DNA of 64,000 nt, from positions 62,001-126,000 of the forward strand of contig NZ_VFOR01000001.1 in NCBI RefSeq assembly GCF_006716235.1. Direction: 5' to 3'. A model generated the notes under the pieces. It did not search any database, was not told where the DNA came from, and worked only from the letters and a program-made list of their open reading frames with translations. The translations under genes were made by a program, and so were the position numbers. Position 1 is the first letter of the stretch; each line of letters opens with the position of its first letter. Source of the DNA: Propioniferax innocua. Its GTDB lineage: Bacteria; Actinomycetota; Actinomycetes; Propionibacteriales; Propionibacteriaceae. Positions 55,217 through 63,928 of this stretch are shown here, in pieces.

Positions 55217-58200
55217 TCACCGCTGACGGCTGCGGCGACGCAGGACGCTGGTGGCCGCCAGCCCCAGCATCGCGGCGACCCCCACGGCCATGGCGAGGCC
55301 GGCAGCGTCTCCGGCACCGGTGTTGGGCAGTCCTCCGGGACCCTTGCCGCCTTCGGGGGCGCCGGGCCGTTCGCCCGGACCGGGCGCACCTGCTTCCTCG
55401 TCGGAATCAGGGTCGGACTCACCAGGTTCACCGGGCTGGCCCGGTTCGCCGGGCGCAGGAGCCGGATCGCTGGGATCCTCGGGCTCGGGAGCCGGATCAC
55501 CGGGCTCCTCCGGCTGAGGCGCCGGTGACTCGGGATCCTCCGGTGCCGGAGCCGGCGTGGTCGGATCATCACCGGGCTCCTCGGCAGGAGTGAACGGCAC
55601 ACCCGGTTCCACGTCGGTGTCGAGACCGAGCGCATTCACCACGGTGAAGTGCAGGTCGGTCTGGTCGGTGAAGCCGATGACGTTCTCGGCCGACGGTCCC
55701 TCGGCAGCGATGCGCAACTGTGCACCGGTATGCGTCGAGGAAGCACCCTCATTGTCCGACGCAGTCGCGTAGTTCACGCTCATCGGAGCACCGTCGGCCG
55801 TGGTCAGCTTCGTGACCAGACCAGCGGTCTCGGCGTCGTTGTAGACGATCTGCGAGGTGTGGGCGTGGTCGGCGGTCACGACGATGAGCGTGGGCTCACC
55901 GGATTCGGCCACCCAGTCCCGTGCCACCTGCACGGCCTGATCGAGGTCATCGAGTTCGCCGATCTGGCCACAGATGTCGGATGCGTGGTCGGCCTTGTCG
56001 ATCGAGGCACCCTCCACCTGCAGGAAGAAGCCCTCCTCGTTGGGCAGGACGTTCAATGCCGCCGAGGTCATGTCGGCCAGGGTCGGCACGTCCTCGGTGC
56101 GTTCGGGGTTCTTCTCACAGCGTGCAGGATCCTGCATGGCACCATCGGTGGTCGGCACCGTCTCCAGGAAGTTGCGGGGCAGGTTGCCCTCGTCGAACAG
56201 CCCGAGGATCGGGCCCTCGGGATCGGCCTGACGCAGCGAGATGCCCTCGGCCTCGGCCGAACCGGTCGCAGCTTCGAGCTCGGCCTTGTTCGTGACCACC
56301 TGGAACCCGTTGGCCTCGGCGTTCTCCAGCACGGTGTCACCCTCGGTCCAGGTGTTGTCGCCGGCTTCACCGCTGACCTGGACGGTCTGCTCGAAGGCCG
56401 CCGATCCACCGCCGAGCGTGATGTCGGCGCGGGTGTCGATGAGCTGTTCGGAGATGGACCCGAGGCCGCCGTTCTCGCGGTACTGGGCGTCGAACTCGCC
56501 GCCGGTGCAGCGCGGGTTGGCCTCCTCGGTGTTCTCCGGCCCGTAGCACTTGCGGTTCACCGCATGGGCGCCCATGACGGCCGCGGTGGCGTCCTGGATC
56601 TCGGAGGTGGTGACATTGCCGGTCTTCATACCGGCGGCTTTGGCCATCTCCAGCAGGTTGGCGTGCGGGGTGCCATCGAGCCCGATGCCGATACCACCGT
56701 TGTAGGTCTTGGTGCCGGTGGCCCATCCGGTGCCCGAGGCCGCCGAGTCGGTGACGTAGTCGGGGAGCCCAGTCTCCGGGTTCAGCGCGTAGTGGGTGTA
56801 CGAGCCGGTGTAGGGCAGTGCATCGACGCCGGGCAGACGTCCATTGGCGCCATAGAGGTAGTTGCGCGCCGAGGTGATCTCCGAGTCGCCCATGCCGTCA
56901 CCGATGAACAGGATCATGTTCTTGGCCTGCTCGTCGGAGCGCTGCTCGCCCTCGGTGCCGTACTGGGCGCAGTCACCGGGTAGGGGAGCGACCATGTTGC
57001 CGTTGGCATCCACCCGGAAGCAGGTCTCGGCCGGATTCGACGCCGCGACCGGCTTGGCCAGACCCGCATCACTGGCCCCGTCGGATTTGTCGGGGTTGAG
57101 ATCGAGGGCACTGAGCATGGTGTAGAAGAGGTCCGTCTGGTCGGTCTGGCCCAGAACGTTCTCCTCACCCGGGCCATATGCGGCCACACGGAGCTGGGCG
57201 CCGGTGTGCTGGGTCGAGCTCTCGCCAGCCTCATCGGCGGGGATGGTGCCGTAGGCGACCGTCATGGGGGTGCCGTCGGCGGTCTCCAGACGCGCGGTGG
57301 CCGAAACACTGTCGGCGTCGTCATAGACGATCTGAGTGCTGTGCGAATGGTCGGCGGTCACCACCACGAGGGTGTCGCCATCCTCCTTGGCGAAGTCAAG
57401 GGCAGCCTTGGTGACCTCGTCGAGGCGCTCGGTTTCACCGATCTGACCGCAGATGTCCGCACCATGGGCCGACTTGTCGATCGACGCCGACTCGATCTGG
57501 AGGAAGAAGCCCTCCTCGGCCTCGGGATCATCCAGCAACTCGATGGCCTTGTCGGTCATCTGCGACAGATCCGGTTCGTCGCCGGTGTCCTGAGGGGTGC
57601 ACTGGACGGGCTCATCGTGAGCGCCGCCGACGCTGGCGAGGTGCGGTTCGAAGCGAGTGGCCATGTTGCCCTCGGCGAACAGCCCCAGCACGGGCTTGTC
57701 CTGATCCGCTTCGGTGATGGCCGACAGTTCGTCGGCGTCGGTGGCCACCTGGAATCCGTTGTTCTCGGCGTTCTCCAGAACGGTGTCACCCTCGGTCCAC
57801 TCGGTCTGTGTATGGCCCTCGTCTGCGGTCAGGTACGGGTTCCGCCCGGGACCGCCTTCTTGGACGACCTGCTCGAAGGCCGCCGAACCGCCACCGAGGG
57901 TCACATCGGCGCGGGTGTCGATGAGCTGTTCGGAGATGGACCCGAGGCCGCCGTTCTCGCGGTACTGGGCGTCATACTCCTCACCGAAGCAGCGACCGTT
58001 CGCCTCCTCGGTGTTCTCCGGGCCGTAGCACTTGCGATTCAGGGCGTGGGCTCCCATGGCCGCCGGGGTGGCGTCCTGGATCTCGGAGGTGGTGACGTTG
58101 CCGGTGCGCATGCCACCGAGCTTGGCCAGCTCGATCAGGTTGGGCACCGGGGTGCCGTCGATCTGAACACCGACGGCACCGTTGTAGGTCTTGGTGCCGG

Positions 58201-58645
58201 TCGCCCAGGCCGTACCCGAAGCGGCGGAATCGGTCACGTAGTTGATCGACCCGTCGCGGTTGACCGAGTGATGTGTGTACTGCCCTTCGCTGGTGAGCTC
58301 GTCGATGCCCTCGAAGCGGCCGGCGGCCCCCTCGAGGTAGTTGCGTGCAGCAGTGATCTCCTGCTGACCCATGCCATCGCCGATGATGAGGATCACGTTG
58401 CGGGCGGTCTCATCGGTCCGCCCCTGGCCTTCTTTCCCGAATTGGGCGCAGTCACCGGGGCCGGGGGCGACGACATTCCCGTCGCCGTCAATGGCCACGC
58501 AGTCTTCGGGGCCGTTGTAGCCCCGTGTGGTGTCGCCTTCAGCGGCGGAGGCCAGCGGATTGAACAGAGACATCGAACTGAGGACGGCTGTGACGGCCAG
58601 TGTCGCAAGAGATGCGACGCTGCGCCGTGACCGTGGAGACTTCAT
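55217..58645 (-). CDS. Cell-wall-anchored alkaline phosphatase with two tandem catalytic domains
   Basis: The 1142-residue protein has a signal peptide (about 1-35, ending ASA), two complete PhoA-type domains (about 75-545 and 570-1010), a Pro/Glu/Asp-rich stalk and a sortase signal (LPNTG at about 1106, a hydrophobic stretch and RRRSRQR). Each domain has its own set: IGDGMG, nucleophile Ser in TDSAASGT, the GNVTTSEIQDAT segment, and TADH metal ligands (TADHSHST / TADHAHTS). Both copies share the C-rich RKCYGPENTEEAN and ENGGLGSISEQLIDTRAD segments, so they arose by duplication. It should release phosphate from esters at the cell surface. GGAAAGGA precedes the ATG. Confidence 0.93.
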   Translation of the reverse strand: MKSPRSRRSVASLATLAVTAVLSSMSLFNPLASAAEGDTTRGYNGPEDCVAIDGDGNVVAPGPGDCAQFGKEGQGRTDETARNVILIIGDGMGQQEITAARNYLEGAAGRFEGIDELTSEGQYTHHSVNRDGSINYVTDSAASGTAWATGTKTYNGAVGVQIDGTPVPNLIELAKLGGMRTGNVTTSEIQDATPAAMGAHALNRKCYGPENTEEANGRCFGEEYDAQYRENGGLGSISEQLIDTRADVTLGGGSAAFEQVVQEGGPGRNPYLTADEGHTQTEWTEGDTVLENAENNGFQVATDADELSAITEADQDKPVLGLFAEGNMATRFEPHLASVGGAHDEPVQCTPQDTGDEPDLSQMTDKAIELLDDPEAEEGFFLQIESASIDKSAHGADICGQIGETERLDEVTKAALDFAKEDGDTLVVVTADHSHSTQIVYDDADSVSATARLETADGTPMTVAYGTIPADEAGESSTQHTGAQLRVAAYGPGEENVLGQTDQTDLFYTMLSALDLNPDKSDGASDAGLAKPVAASNPAETCFRVDANGNMVAPLPGDCAQYGTEGEQRSDEQAKNMILFIGDGMGDSEITSARNYLYGANGRLPGVDALPYTGSYTHYALNPETGLPDYVTDSAASGTGWATGTKTYNGGIGIGLDGTPHANLLEMAKAAGMKTGNVTTSEIQDATAAVMGAHAVNRKCYGPENTEEANPRCTGGEFDAQYRENGGLGSISEQLIDTRADITLGGGSAAFEQTVQVSGEAGDNTWTEGDTVLENAEANGFQVVTNKAELEAATGSAEAEGISLRQADPEGPILGLFDEGNLPRNFLETVPTTDGAMQDPARCEKNPERTEDVPTLADMTSAALNVLPNEEGFFLQVEGASIDKADHASDICGQIGELDDLDQAVQVARDWVAESGEPTLIVVTADHAHTSQIVYNDAETAGLVTKLTTADGAPMSVNYATASDNEGASSTHTGAQLRIAAEGPSAENVIGFTDQTDLHFTVVNALGLDTDVEPGVPFTPAEEPGDDPTTPAPAPEDPESPAPQPEEPGDPAPEPEDPSDPAPAPGEPGQPGEPGESDPDSDEEAGAPGPGERPGAPEGGKGPGGLPNTGAGDAAGLAMAVGVAAMLGLAATSVLRRRSRQR

Positions 58646-58684
58646 GGTGTCCTTTCCCTTGAACCGGTCGGGCCCTCTGATCAG

Positions 58685-58690
58685 ACAGTA
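58685..58690 (-). promoter_or_regulatory. Candidate -10 box of the alkaline phosphatase gene
   Basis: On the minus strand TACTGT lies 4 bp beyond the last phased repeat unit, 39 bp before the ATG at 58645, a normal promoter position for an activator bound over the -35 region. Confidence 0.4.
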
Positions 58691-58694
58691 TGAA

Positions 58695-58734
58695 TGTCAC
58701 CGAGTGGTTGAAATTAGGTGTCCAAAGGGTTAAC
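58695..58734 (-). promoter_or_regulatory. PHO-box-like repeats of the alkaline phosphatase gene
   Basis: On the minus strand four heptamers start exactly 11 bp apart: GTTAACC (58734), GGACACC (58723), TTCAACC (58712) and GGTGACA (58701). Direct GTTCACC-like repeats with an 11-bp period are the known PhoP-binding pattern in Streptomyces. The gene it precedes is a phosphatase, which fits. Binding itself is not shown. Confidence 0.65.
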
Positions 58735-58817
58735 CGGATCAGAGAAGGTTCGAAATCGATGCTCGGATCATCTGTGGCGAGCGCGTTCCGGAGTCTTTCG
58801 AGGAGGGACCTTCAACT

Positions 58818-58877
58818 GTTCGAGCCTCGTTTCCTCGCACGATGGCCACCGTTCACATGTTGTTAAGAATCGTTTTC
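58818..58877 (+). promoter_or_regulatory. PHO-box-like repeats and promoter of the ugp-type operon
   Basis: On the plus strand GTTCGAG (58818), GTTTCCT (58829), GTTCACA (58851) and GTTAAGA (58862) keep an 11-bp register, one position (58840) not matching. A -10 box TAGAGT follows at 58879-58884. The fit is looser than on the other strand. Confidence 0.55.
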
Positions 58878-58914
58878 GTAGAGTGGCCAGTCAGACGTGT
58901 GAACGCTGGAGAAG

Positions 58915-60069
58915 ATGGAGAAGCCCGTGTCGAGCGTGGTGCTACGCGATGTCCGGAAGTCCTTTCCCTCGCGCAGGGGCGGGCAGGTCGCCGTGCTGAG
59001 CGGGATCGACACCGATGTCGCCGATGGGGAGTTCTTGGCCATTCTGGGGCCGTCCGGATGCGGCAAGTCGACGCTTCTGCGCATCATTTCGGGGCTCGAG
59101 GCGCCCACGAGTGGGTCCATCCACATCAATGGAGCAGACGTGACCGGTACCGCCCCCGAGCGCCGCGAGCTGGCCATGGTGTTCCAGAACTATGCGCTGT
59201 TCCCGCACCTCGACGTGCGGGAGAACATCCTCTTCGGGCTGAAATCGCGTCGGGAGCCGCGTGACCTGCAGGGGCGCCGTCTTCGTGAAACCACTGATCT
59301 CCTGGGGTTGGACGCACTTCTCGACCGAAAACCCTCCGAGCTCTCCGGTGGCCAGCGTCAGCGCGTGGCACTGGGCCGGGCGCTGGTCTCCGGGCAACGG
59401 CTCATTCTCATGGACGAGCCGCTGTCGAACCTCGACGCCAAGCTGCGGGCCGACATGCGCATCGAACTCAAGCGCATCCAGCGCCGCCTTGGGCTGACCA
59501 TCATCTATGTCACACACGATCAGGTGGAAGCCATGACGATGGCCGACCGGGTCATGATGCTGGCCGATGGGGGTGTGGAGCAGCTCGCGGCTCCGGCGGA
59601 GATCTATGCTGCCCCGGCCAGTGTCACCGTGGGTCGATTCATCGGTTCGCCGCCGATGAACATCATCGCTCCATTCGGGCGCGCCGGAGGCGCGCTGCCC
59701 CTGCCTGCGGGGGTCGACGCGGGTCGGACGCTGCTTGGGGTTCGCCCCGAGCGGGTCTCGTTGGTCAGCGAGGGGCTTCCCTGCCCCGACGATGAGGTGC
59801 AGATCGGGGCCGCAGAGGTCGTGGTCAACGAACTCCTTGGCGCTGACCGAATCGTCACCACCGAGATGGCCGACGGCACCCGTGTCATGGTGCGCGTCAC
59901 TCCCGATGTCGCTGTGGCCGAGGGCGCAAGGGTCACGCTCTCTGCACCTGCGGACCATCTTCACCTCTACGACCGGACCTCGCGGCGTCGGCTCGAGCAG
60001 TCACCTTTTCCGCAGAGTGATCCGGGTGCCGATCCCGCTCCGACGGCCCACATGCCGGAAGTCCGCTGA
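58915..60069 (+). CDS. ugpC: UgpC-like ABC importer ATPase
   Basis: The 384-residue ATPase has Walker A GPSGCGKS (45-52), Q-loop VFQNYALFPHLDV, signature LSGGQRQRVA, Walker B LILMDEPLSNLD and a C-terminal TOBE domain (about 245-370), the layout of MalK/UgpC. It energises uptake by the genes that follow. The start may be ATG 58915 or GTG 58927, which has GGAG at a better 6-nt distance. Placing the ATPase first is less usual for ugp operons. Confidence 0.88.
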   Translation: MEKPVSSVVLRDVRKSFPSRRGGQVAVLSGIDTDVADGEFLAILGPSGCGKSTLLRIISGLEAPTSGSIHINGADVTGTAPERRELAMVFQNYALFPHLDVRENILFGLKSRREPRDLQGRRLRETTDLLGLDALLDRKPSELSGGQRQRVALGRALVSGQRLILMDEPLSNLDAKLRADMRIELKRIQRRLGLTIIYVTHDQVEAMTMADRVMMLADGGVEQLAAPAEIYAAPASVTVGRFIGSPPMNIIAPFGRAGGALPLPAGVDAGRTLLGVRPERVSLVSEGLPCPDDEVQIGAAEVVVNELLGADRIVTTEMADGTRVMVRVTPDVAVAEGARVTLSAPADHLHLYDRTSRRRLEQSPFPQSDPGADPAPTAHMPEVR

Positions 60070-60114: not shown

Positions 60115-61398
60115 ATGAAACGACAGATCCGTACCCGCGCAGGGGCCGCCTTGGCCGCCGCCTCATTGTTGCTCACCGCCTGTGGCGGTGACGGCACGAG
60201 CGACGGCGTCACTGAGATCGACTTCTACTATCCGATCGCCGTCGGGGGCCCGTTGGAGTCGGTGATGAACGGCTACATCGACAGGTTCAACGATGAGCAC
60301 GATGACATCGAGGTCACGCCGGTCTATTCGGGTGACTATGAGCAGACGCTCGCCTCGGTCCAGTCGGCAGCACAAGCGGGCAATACGCCGGCGCTGACGG
60401 TGCTCGGCTCGCATGAACTGCTCACTGTCCACGATGCCGGAATCATCAAGCCCATCGAGGAGATCGTCGACGACCCCGAATGGTTCGATGGCTTCTACGA
60501 CTCTTTCATGCTCAACAGCACGCTGCCCGATGGGACCGTCGCCTCCATCCCCTTCCAGCGATCCACTGTGGTGATGTACTGGAACAAGGAGCTTTTCGAG
60601 AAGGCCGGGTTGGATCCGGAGACGGCACCCACAACGTGGGACGAGATGGTCGATTTCGGTAAGCAGGCTCAGGACAGGGGCGGTGCCGACTGGGGAATCC
60701 AGATCCCGTCCACCACCTGGGGTGTGTGGATGCTCGAATGCATGGTCATCCAGAACGGTGAGTTGCTGTGGGACGCCGAGAGCGGTGCACACGTCGGATA
60801 TGACGACCCGGCCACTGCGACTGCACTGCAGAACTGGGCAGACCTGCAGGCCGACGGTCTCGAGCCGAAGGGAACGGTCGAGTGGGGCACGCTGCCCACC
60901 GAGTTCTCGAACGGAAACACGGCCATCGCGTGGACGACCACCGGCCAGCTCACCAACATCAAGGACAATGCCGATTTCGAGTTCGGCGTCGCTCCGCTTC
61001 CAGCTCAGGACCAGCCCGGATCGGCCACTGGCGGCGGAAATCTCTACGTCATGGACGGCATCGACGATGACCAACAGGACGCAGCGGTGGAGCTTGCCCG
61101 CTTCCTGTCGTCGCCGGAGATCCAATCGGACTGGGGAGTGGAGTCCGGGTACGTTGCCGCCGTCGAGGAAGCGTGGGAATCCGAGCCGTTGGCAAGCTAC
61201 GTCGAGGAGTTCCCACAGGCCGGCGCTGCACGGGACCAGCTGGACGTGGCCGAGCCGGAGTTCGGCACTTACCGGCGTCAGGAGGTCTTTGATGTGATGG
61301 CCAACGCCATCGAAGAGGTGATGGGCGGCGCCGAGGTGGAGCCGACACTCGAAGAGGCCCAGAAGCAGGCCGACGAGATCCTCGCCGAGTACCAGTGA
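60115..61398 (+). CDS. ugpB: UgpB-like substrate-binding lipoprotein
   Basis: The 427-residue protein has a lipoprotein signal (lipid Cys23 in LLTAC) and a family 1 solute-binding fold. Its N-terminal IDFYYPIAVGGPLESVMNGYIDRFN and VYSGDYEQTLASVQSA resemble binding proteins for glycerol-3-phosphate. SIPFQRSTVVMYWNKELFEKAG follows in the standard position. Substrate by family and context is sn-glycerol-3-phosphate or a glycerophosphodiester; sugar cannot be excluded. ATG 60115 has GAGGAG 4 nt upstream. Its stop overlaps ugpA (GTGA). Confidence 0.85.
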   Translation: MKRQIRTRAGAALAAASLLLTACGGDGTSDGVTEIDFYYPIAVGGPLESVMNGYIDRFNDEHDDIEVTPVYSGDYEQTLASVQSAAQAGNTPALTVLGSHELLTVHDAGIIKPIEEIVDDPEWFDGFYDSFMLNSTLPDGTVASIPFQRSTVVMYWNKELFEKAGLDPETAPTTWDEMVDFGKQAQDRGGADWGIQIPSTTWGVWMLECMVIQNGELLWDAESGAHVGYDDPATATALQNWADLQADGLEPKGTVEWGTLPTEFSNGNTAIAWTTTGQLTNIKDNADFEFGVAPLPAQDQPGSATGGGNLYVMDGIDDDQQDAAVELARFLSSPEIQSDWGVESGYVAAVEEAWESEPLASYVEEFPQAGAARDQLDVAEPEFGTYRRQEVFDVMANAIEEVMGGAEVEPTLEEAQKQADEILAEYQ

Positions 61399-62309
61399 AT
61401 CGGACCCCCTCGGCCACCTGGTCAGGCGCGGCGTCGTCGGATGCCCTCCGGCGGCGCCGCCGTTCTGATGCGGGTTTCGCCTATGCTGCCTTGACGCCGG
61501 CGTTCGTGATCCTGGTCGGATTCACCGTCTTGCCCTTCATCATGGCTGCGTGGCGCAGCATCCATGATCGGTCGGGAGAGCTGACGGGGAAGAACTACGA
61601 GAGGATGTTGCACGACGGTGTGTTCCACACGGTGATCCAGAACCAGCTCGTCTACACGGCGGTGACGGTCCCGGCCACGGTTGCCGTGTCCTTGGCCCTC
61701 GCGCTACTGGGTGCGAAGGTCGTCCGGGCCAAAGCGTGGGTCCGCGTTTCCTTCCTGGCTCCGGCCGTGTTGCCCATCGTGGCAGCCGGAACCATCTGGG
61801 TGTACTTCTATCAGCCCAATTTCGGCGTCCTGAACGCGGCCCTGGGCGCCGTGGGGTTGCCGCAGCCGAATTGGTTGGGGCAACCGGATACGGCGCTCGG
61901 CGCCATGATGGTCGTTGCCATCTGGCAGCAGGCTGGTCTGTTCGTCCTGTTCTACCTGGCGGCACTGCTGACCCAGGACCCACAACTCCGTGAAGCCGCG
62001 CGCATCGAAGGTACTGGCCCATGGATGTTCTTTCGGAGGGTGACCTGGCCGTTGTTGATGCCGACGACGTTGTTCGTCGGCGTGATCGCCACGGCAAATT
62101 CCTTCAAACAGGTCGACCTGGTGTTCGTGATGACCCAAGGAGGCCCGGCTGATTCGACGAAGTTGATGCTCTACTACGTCTGGCAGACGGCCTTCGGCCA
62201 GTTCCGCCAAGGCTATTCGGCGGCCATCACCGTGGCGCTCGTGGCCATTCTGCTGACCATTGCGGTGGCCCAGATCCGCTTGCTCGACAAACGTATCCAC
62301 TACCGCTGA
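61395..62309 (+). CDS. ugpA: UgpA-like ABC importer permease
   Basis: The 304-residue permease has six hydrophobic segments and the EAA loop EAARIEGTGPWMFFRRVTWPLL that contacts the ATPase. The N-terminal 30 residues are polar and Arg/Ser-rich. It pairs with UgpE to form the membrane channel. Confidence 0.88.
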   Translation: MNRTPSATWSGAASSDALRRRRRSDAGFAYAALTPAFVILVGFTVLPFIMAAWRSIHDRSGELTGKNYERMLHDGVFHTVIQNQLVYTAVTVPATVAVSLALALLGAKVVRAKAWVRVSFLAPAVLPIVAAGTIWVYFYQPNFGVLNAALGAVGLPQPNWLGQPDTALGAMMVVAIWQQAGLFVLFYLAALLTQDPQLREAARIEGTGPWMFFRRVTWPLLMPTTLFVGVIATANSFKQVDLVFVMTQGGPADSTKLMLYYVWQTAFGQFRQGYSAAITVALVAILLTIAVAQIRLLDKRIHYR

Positions 62310-62325
62310 GAAAGGCCCAGCGCGC

Positions 62326-63213
62326 ATGAATCGCATATCCGACCCCGTCTCGTCCGGTGACCACGAGGCCTCGTCATCGGAGGCTAGTTCGGAGCAGGTG
62401 GCCCGCCCCGCAGCCAGCTTGGGGGACCGGTTGATGGTCGTGTCGGCCTGGGGCATGGCCCTTGTGTGGGTGTTCCCCCTCCTGCTGGTGCTCGTGATGG
62501 CGCTTCGCGACTCACCCACCGATTTCTCGCCGTGGGGTGGCTGGACCTTCGAGAACCTCACGCGGGTCTGGAACGCTGCGCCCTTCGGGATCTTTCTGCG
62601 CAACAGCTTCCTGCTCGTGGTGGGGTTGACCTCCACACAGGTCGTTCTGGGAGTACTGGCGGCCTACGCGTTCGCGCGTTTCGAGTTCCGCGGCCGGGAC
62701 GTGCTGTTCTTCGTCGTGTTGGCCCAATTGGTCATCTATCCCGAGATCATGCTCTCGGAGAATTTCTTCATGATCTCGCGACTGGGACTCGACGACACGC
62801 TCCTCGGCGTCGGGCTTCCCTATGCCGCCAGCGCATTCGCGATCTTCCTGTTGCGGCAGGCGTTCAAGACCGTTCCCGGTGAACTCGTCGAGGCCGCTGT
62901 CATGGAAGGTATGGGGCGGCTTCGGGTGCTGTGGCATGTTTACCTGCCACTGTGCCGGTCCACCGTGGCTGCCTTCGCCATGGTGTCGGTCTCGTTCCAC
63001 TGGAACAATTTTCTGTGGCCACTGATCGCCACACGGACCAATGACGCCCGTCCGGTCACCGTCGGCGTGGTGCGGTTCATGGCTCCGGAATCGGGTATCG
63101 ACTACGCGTCGTTGACCGCGGGGACCTTCATCATCGTGACGCCACTGTTGGTGTTCTTCATCATCATGCAGCGTCAGTTCGTGCAGTCCTTCATGCGCTC
63201 GGGGATCAAATAG
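62326..63213 (+). CDS. ugpE: UgpE-like ABC importer permease
   Basis: The 295-residue permease has six hydrophobic segments and an EAA loop, EAAVMEGMGRLRVLWHVYLPL. A polar N-terminal tail of about 35 residues precedes the first helix. ATG 62326 is taken; a Shine-Dalgarno is weak (GAGAAAGG). It begins 16 bp after ugpA and converges with the TetR gene, 19 bp between stops. Confidence 0.87.
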   Translation: MNRISDPVSSGDHEASSSEASSEQVARPAASLGDRLMVVSAWGMALVWVFPLLLVLVMALRDSPTDFSPWGGWTFENLTRVWNAAPFGIFLRNSFLLVVGLTSTQVVLGVLAAYAFARFEFRGRDVLFFVVLAQLVIYPEIMLSENFFMISRLGLDDTLLGVGLPYAASAFAIFLLRQAFKTVPGELVEAAVMEGMGRLRVLWHVYLPLCRSTVAAFAMVSVSFHWNNFLWPLIATRTNDARPVTVGVVRFMAPESGIDYASLTAGTFIIVTPLLVFFIIMQRQFVQSFMRSGIK

Positions 63214-63232: not shown

Positions 63233-63928
63233 TCAGGAACCGCTCTGGTCCAACATGGTCCGGCTCATGCCCTCCATCAGCGAGGTGATCAGAAGCCGGA
63301 AATAACGCTCGCTGGTCTGTTGCCCCTCGTCGCTGAGCAGAGGAGTGAGGAGTTCGTCACGCATCAGCGCCACCGCGTGACTCTGTTCGGCGAGGTCGGC
63401 GAGGTTCTGGCGCATGGCCTCGATGTCGTGCCGGCGACGGGCCAGGTGGGACTGGCGGTCCCGCGCCGATATCGCGCCCATCGCCACATTGATGATCATG
63501 GCGTGGGCCGTTGTGACATGCTCGCCGAAGCCGGCGGCGGTGAGCTTGTCGATCGCTGTTTCGAACAGGGGTAGTAGATCGGCCGGGAAGTGGCCCGACT
63601 CGGAGCGTTCGACGAGGTTCTGCGTCACGCCGTGGTACTGCAGTGACGCCCGGCGCAGGGTGAGCAGTATCTCCATGTACCACTCCTGCCACGGCAGGTC
63701 GGCATCCGGCATCTCGACCGTGGCCAGGATCTGGTCGGTGACGGTGTTCTGAACGGCGGCCTTGGTGGGGAAGTAGTGGTAGATCACCGACGGGACCACA
63801 TCGAGCTCTGTTGCCAGATCCCTGATCGACCAGCCGTGGAGCCCCTTCTTCGCCGTCATCGCCAGCGCACAGGCTCCAACTCTCTCAGGAGTGAGCCCGA
63901 CCCGACGGGACGTGTCCTTGGCGGTCAT
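63233..63928 (-). CDS. TetR/AcrR-family regulator
   Basis: The 231-residue protein has a TetR-type HTH at about residues 14-60 (GACALAMTAKKGLHGWSIRDLATELDVVPSVIYHYFPTKAAV) and an all-helical ligand domain. The YHYFPTK turn is a typical recognition-helix end. Ligand and targets are unknown. It reads away from the right end of the window and may control a gene outside it. The ATG has TACACT 6 nt upstream. Confidence 0.88.
   Translation of the reverse strand: MTAKDTSRRVGLTPERVGACALAMTAKKGLHGWSIRDLATELDVVPSVIYHYFPTKAAVQNTVTDQILATVEMPDADLPWQEWYMEILLTLRRASLQYHGVTQNLVERSESGHFPADLLPLFETAIDKLTAAGFGEHVTTAHAMIINVAMGAISARDRQSHLARRRHDIEAMRQNLADLAEQSHAVALMRDELLTPLLSDEGQQTSERYFRLLITSLMEGMSRTMLDQSGS

Follow-up and report, generated by a model that had tools for sequence, protein, structure and literature searches.

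A likely divergent pair of phosphate-starvation promoters between a tandem alkaline phosphatase gene and a Ugp-type importer in Propioniferax innocua

Described phosphate boxes and how the locus compares

Streptomyces PhoP recognizes PHO boxes, in which GTTCACC units are repeated directly every 11 nt (PMC7866108, PMC4415409), and RegX3 of M. smegmatis is an activator of pstS and phoA (PMC12301784). In C. glutamicum, phosphorylated PhoR binds the promoter of the ugpAEBC importer operon (PMC3353115), while the DevR-like regulator PolR of Microlunatus phosphovorus binds GTTCACnnnnnGTTCaC upstream of pstS (PMC6754071). The ligand residues of a Ugp binding protein have been published for Phaeobacter UgpB, in which Glu88 and Arg393 hold the glycerol hydroxyls (PMC12718374). 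Here we analyzed a window of 64,000 nucleotides of Propioniferax innocua, in which a 269-bp gap separates an alkaline phosphatase (ALP) gene on the minus strand from the genes of a Ugp-type importer on the plus strand. Based on sequence comparison, the gap is likely a divergent pair of phosphate-starvation promoters, probably of an ordinary kind: the phosphatase side, which is well supported, is very probably such a promoter, and the importer side, the weaker half of the claim, is probably one as well.

The locus resembles each of the described systems in part. Its boxes have the Streptomyces heptamer, the 11-bp head-to-tail phasing and the combination of core and degenerate units (PMC7866108, PMC4415409). 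Unlike Streptomyces PhoP, however, the regulator present here is of the RegX3 type by sequence, the boxes lie 31 nt (pstS, phoU, phn) or 9–10 nt (Ugp, Na/Pi) before a putative –10 element, and the genome has a Ugp-type importer, whereas Streptomyces lacks a ugp cluster (PMC7866108). The mycobacterial SenX3-RegX3-PhoU system provides the best-matching regulator, with kinase and phoU adjacent here too, but the gene set of the regulon differs, and the likeness concerns the regulator, the gene adjacency and the targets pstS and phoA, PMC12301784 giving no box sequence. The PhoR regulon of C. glutamicum likewise includes a Ugp importer as a phosphate-starvation operon (PMC3353115), although the PhoR site is an 8-bp repeat with a 3-bp linker of the CCTGTGAA type rather than 11-bp-phased heptamers, and the importer there is linked to a phosphodiesterase and not to an alkaline phosphatase (PMC7866108). 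PolR sites, including that of pstS, have been footprinted or gel-shifted and have the same sequence and period as the present box (PMC6754071). PolR is DevR-like and tied to oxygen, in contrast to the RegX3-type regulator here; since it acts on a like box in Microlunatus, a member of the same family, the box could have another regulator besides RegX3 in the present genome. Finally, the importer shares operon content and phosphate-contacting residues with the Ugp importers of E. coli and with Phaeobacter UgpB, but its binding protein has Ser and Phe where the latter has Glu88 and Arg393.

Boxes, promoter layout and regulator

The original prediction had placed eight heptamers in the gap, four on each strand, and all are present at the coordinates it gave (Table 1). 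On the minus strand the four units, separated by cttt, taat and actc, form a real 11-bp-phased PHO array that stands above chance in matrix ranks and Markov controls. On the plus strand, where four units with one gap had been proposed, the two nearest the importer are credible, the two farther upstream fail the matrix, and position 58840, which falls in the same register, has no match to the heptamer matrix. A mechanical repeat finder listed no direct-repeat family in the region, because the heptamer copies are degenerate. A sigma-70 consensus scan of the region found no promoter, which is unsurprising for activator-dependent promoters.

Table 1. Features of the divergent region and its flanking genes (positions in the window).
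Feature	Position	Strand	Remark
Secreted LPNTG-anchored alkaline phosphatase, two tandem PhoA-type domains	55217..58645	-	
Candidate -10 TCTGAT, ALP side	58680..58685	-	family spacing, 31 nt past repeat 2
Alternative candidate -10 TACTGT, ALP side	58685-58690	-	26 nt spacing
Heptamer 4, ALP array, GGTGACA	58695..58701	-	register of the GTCA element of relatives' pstS promoters
Heptamer 3, ALP array, TTCAACC, degenerate	58706..58712	-	
PHO heptamer 2, ALP array, GGACACC	58717..58723	-	
PHO heptamer 1, ALP array, GTTAACC	58728..58734	-	identical to both heptamers of the genome's own pstS box
GTTCGAG	58818..58824	+	repeat of the original prediction, unsupported as box
GTTTCCT	58829..58835	+	repeat of the original prediction, unsupported as box
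PHO-like heptamer GTTCACA, Ugp promoter	58851..58857	+	
PHO-like heptamer GTTAAGA, degenerate, Ugp promoter	58862..58868	+	
Candidate -10 TAGAGT, Ugp side	58879..58884	+	10 nt past second heptamer
UgpC/MalK-type ABC ATPase	58915..60069	+	
UgpB-family solute-binding lipoprotein, altered pocket	60115..61398	+	
UgpA-type permease	61395..62309	+	
UgpE-type permease	62323..63213	+	putative start codon

The GTTCACC consensus at three mismatches gave hundreds of matches and was useless for site calling. The boxes were scored, rather than judged by eye, with a heptamer matrix; a search of 57 genomes supplied pstS promoters from 29 relatives for it, and the genome of the window itself was excluded. Its sites were chosen by the consensus that the genome's own pstS and phoU boxes suggested, so that the 58.7-kb region had no part in the matrix, although the PHO-box idea itself did. 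All 29 relatives' promoters contain GTT[CA]ACC-N4-GTT[CA]ACC or a near copy. Of the roughly 128,000 window positions scored, the ALP array ranks second for two repeats and first for three and for four; first-order Markov copies of the region reach its score in 0.9%, 0.3% and 0.1% of cases, respectively. Its first pair, GTTAACC-N4-GGACACC, agrees with the consensus at 12 of 14 positions and is followed by two degenerate units. The Ugp-side pair, GTTCACA-N4-GTTAAGA, scores 6.9 bits (rank 8 in the window), a level that about 4% of Markov copies attain; it agrees at 11 of 14 positions, the second heptamer being off consensus at two or three of seven.

The genome (2.79 Mb, 6 contigs), searched by pattern and stretch by stretch, has three copies of the exact box GTTMACS-N4-GTTMACS. 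One lies in the gap that separates phoU from senX3-regX3, another precedes pstSCAB, and the third precedes a gene for a HAD hydrolase followed by phnDCEE. At all three a TAnnnT lies 31–32 nt past the second repeat, a combined pattern that is found nowhere else in the genome. One-mismatch matches elsewhere are mostly inside genes, and among the remainder, judged by context, no adjoining gene was recognized as phosphate-related. This confinement of the exact box to phosphate loci, together with the identity of the first ALP-side heptamer to that of the pstS promoter, argues that the heptamer of the array is the genome's own phosphate-starvation box. The third exact box (G000:C3:108769 onward; L151 1770-5956) precedes the HAD hydrolase gene and a phnDCEE phosphonate/phosphate importer, which together are predicted to form a phosphate-regulon operon.

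The PHO-box part of the original prediction thus stands, but its regulator does not. A phosphate two-component system had been expected in the genome and was found, on a contig other than that of the window, as SenX3-RegX3-PhoU (G000:C2, 564.6-567.3 kb): a RegX3-type regulator gene has a gene for a PhoR/SenX3-type kinase beside it, with phoU in divergent orientation. The best solved relative of the regulator is M. tuberculosis RegX3 (345.7 bits), followed by MtrA (198.3 bits), so that by sequence the phosphate regulator is of the RegX3 type rather than PhoP.

The pstS promoters of the family also indicate how such a box is positioned. In 28 of 30 (own included) the second repeat is followed by a TAnnnT that starts exactly 31 nt on. 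A GTCA element also recurs, 16 nt past that repeat and so in the fourth 11-bp register, which in the ALP array is occupied by GGTGACA. We found no description of this layout in the literature compared. In a 55-nt promoter matrix the ALP promoter is second in the window, and first when the –10 columns are omitted. It has TCTGAT at 31 nt and TACTGT at 26 nt, with no TAnnnT at the family spacing.

The importer promoter is arranged differently. It scores –26.4 bits (rank 967) against the 55-nt pstS-type model, and its box ends 10 nt before TAGAGT. The same 10-nt distance from PHO box to –10 is the arrangement of E. coli. The box-10 nt-TAnnnT layout has a single occurrence in the genome, the Ugp promoter, for a pattern written after seeing the site; the pair together with a TAnnnT at 9, 10, 30, 31 or 32 nt occurs in about 0.08% of Markov copies, with these spacings chosen post hoc. 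A three-unit PHO-like array 9 nt before TAGTCT lies upstream of a Na/Pi-cotransporter gene and a gene for a PstS-like lipoprotein (G000:C1:936667; L086 8667-11352), which makes the Ugp-side layout credible. The lineage would thus use one box at two spacings to the –10 element (31 nt and 9–10 nt) in about six phosphate loci, giving a motif-based view of phosphate-starvation promoters in a little-studied actinobacterial group.

Phosphatase, importer and their relatives

The originally proposed phosphate-scavenging context is supported. The phosphatase (1106 bits against NF007810, cut-off 540) is an in-frame tandem duplication with halves 63% identical and a C-terminal LPNTG anchor signal; DSAAS with the catalytic Ser, RKCYGP with the Arg, and the metal-site motifs DK..H, TADH.H and HTG each occur twice, once per domain. 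Using the first domain as query, we found orthologous phosphatases in seven of 56 other genomes searched. Among these orthologous single-domain phosphatases, four of seven (L121, L125, L123, L124) have an upstream box of 12.6–19.9 bits on the gene's strand. In L121, L125 and L123 no site on either strand of the 4.2-kb locus scores higher than this box, and in L124 it ranks second. No clear upstream box was seen for the phosphatases of L120, L122 and L126. Most of the orthologues in relatives are about half as long as the present enzyme.

The importer is rare in the family, with one other match among 97 genomes. In the genome collection it matches two genomes of Nesterenkonia and a Propionibacterium MAG, after which betaproteobacteria predominate (Variovorax among them, with about 41% identity); this grouping of the actinobacterial copies with betaproteobacterial operons suggests transfer between phyla. 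In N. cremea, N. salmonea and the Propionibacterium MAG, the best four-repeat array of the whole 8–15-kb locus lies directly upstream of the ATPase gene. Position alone would put the best array there with a chance of about 0.5%, 0.8% and 2.4%, respectively (regions of 140, 240 and 410 bp). The N. cremea box is strong, has the 31-nt spacing and gives the best promoter score of its locus by 16 bits; as absolute values, the array scores of 1.6 in N. salmonea and 3.7 in the MAG are low. A phosphatase gene beside the importer was found in none of these three loci. The combination of box and importer therefore recurs in relatives and the divergent pair does not: among the genomes compared, the phosphatase-importer neighborhood occurs only in the present one, and the shared promoter region is not conserved. 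Each Nesterenkonia importer operon has two binding-protein genes, and the gene after the N. cremea importer (L029 12509-13966) encodes a 2H phosphoesterase domain fused to an RpiR/SIS regulator.

The four importer genes have UgpC, UgpB, UgpA and UgpE as their best models, all under the curated cut-offs. The Ugp-type assignment held at the level of the family, but the residues that define glycerol-phosphate binding are absent from the binding protein. By low-identity sequence alignment of Phaeobacter UgpB with this protein and its relatives, the phosphate-contacting Tyr64, Ser143, Ser266 and Tyr342 are kept as Tyr75, Ser150, Thr275 and Tyr346, and Gly303 as Gly307. Glu88 and Arg393 align with Ser99 and Phe392, and both are replaced in every relative compared, by Ser/Ala and Phe/Thr (in the second copies of Nesterenkonia, Val or Gly). 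At the second Trp of the clamp the alignment has Gln, but as a W-x-x-W is present nearby, this position was given no weight. With both glycerol-contacting residues lost, glycerol-3-phosphate appears doubtful as the ligand. In three betaproteobacterial loci, a gene for a DeoR-family regulator lies directly before the importer operon, and the one compared with NCBIfam is nearest to GlpR, which favors a glycerol- or sugar-phosphate-like ligand. We tentatively suggest, at somewhat less than even confidence, that this Ugp branch would be RegX3-controlled and, working next to a tandem phosphatase on the cell surface, import a phosphate ester different from glycerol-3-phosphate; the branch, shared by few actinobacteria and many betaproteobacteria, has kept the phosphate clamp and replaced both glycerol-binding residues. 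If so, the ligand of this Ugp-like importer may differ from the textbook one.

A proposed switch and its rivals

The likely explanation of these data is a known type of switch in a new place. When phosphate is plentiful, PhoU would hold the SenX3-type kinase off; when it is scarce, the kinase would phosphorylate the RegX3-type regulator, which would bind the 11-bp-phased heptamers head to tail and recruit RNA polymerase in both directions. The leftward product would be a cell-surface tandem alkaline phosphatase freeing phosphate outside the cell, and the rightward product a Ugp-class ABC importer that may take up an intact phosphate ester, so that the two are probably induced together when phosphate runs out. 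The model is based on the sequence and phasing of the boxes, their match to the genome's own pstS and phoU boxes, the recurrence of boxes before orthologous genes and the presence of RegX3, SenX3 and PhoU.

Only the phosphatase might be under RegX3, the importer promoter being constitutive or substrate-controlled and its GTT heptamers fortuitous. The score of the Ugp-side pair, which about 4% of Markov copies reach, and its misfit to the pstS-type model point this way. However, the 10-nt spacing to TAnnnT in a layout unique in the genome, the similarly close spacing at the Na/Pi-cotransporter and the top-ranked arrays upstream of the importer in three relatives make this unlikely on balance. 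A fortuitous GTT-rich stretch is barely credible as the source of the repeats: their copies are degenerate and form no repeat family without the matrix, but the ranks in the window, the Markov controls and the reappearance of boxes before orthologous genes all speak against chance. It is highly improbable that the boxes belong to a different regulator recognizing a similar 11-bp repeat, whether MtrA-type, another OmpR-type or PolR-like. The genome encodes four OmpR-type regulators, direct repeats are common to the OmpR class (PMC3353115) and Microlunatus PolR binds nearly the same box (PMC6754071); yet the exact box marks only phosphate loci here, including the region between phoU and senX3-regX3 itself, and the MtrA sites of C. 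glutamicum are (A/G)TAACAAT with a 3-bp linker (PMC3353115).

Control of the importer by a TetR-family protein encoded at the end of the operon (63233-63928) seems improbable. A 13/15-pair inverted repeat (58846-58860 / 58895-58909) spans the start region and includes the plus-strand GTTCACA, but by a rough hand estimate such a repeat has a chance of about 3–10% in 269 bp, and the TetR gene runs on the opposite strand, while the other loci compared have no such gene next to the importer. The region upstream of the TetR gene itself has a different palindrome, GTAGATCATTGTTCTAC, without GTTCACA, which leaves a TetR operator at the importer unsupported. The TetR gene faces an MFS-transporter-like gene just past the end of the window (L088, about 6030), and the palindrome between the two is likely an operator.
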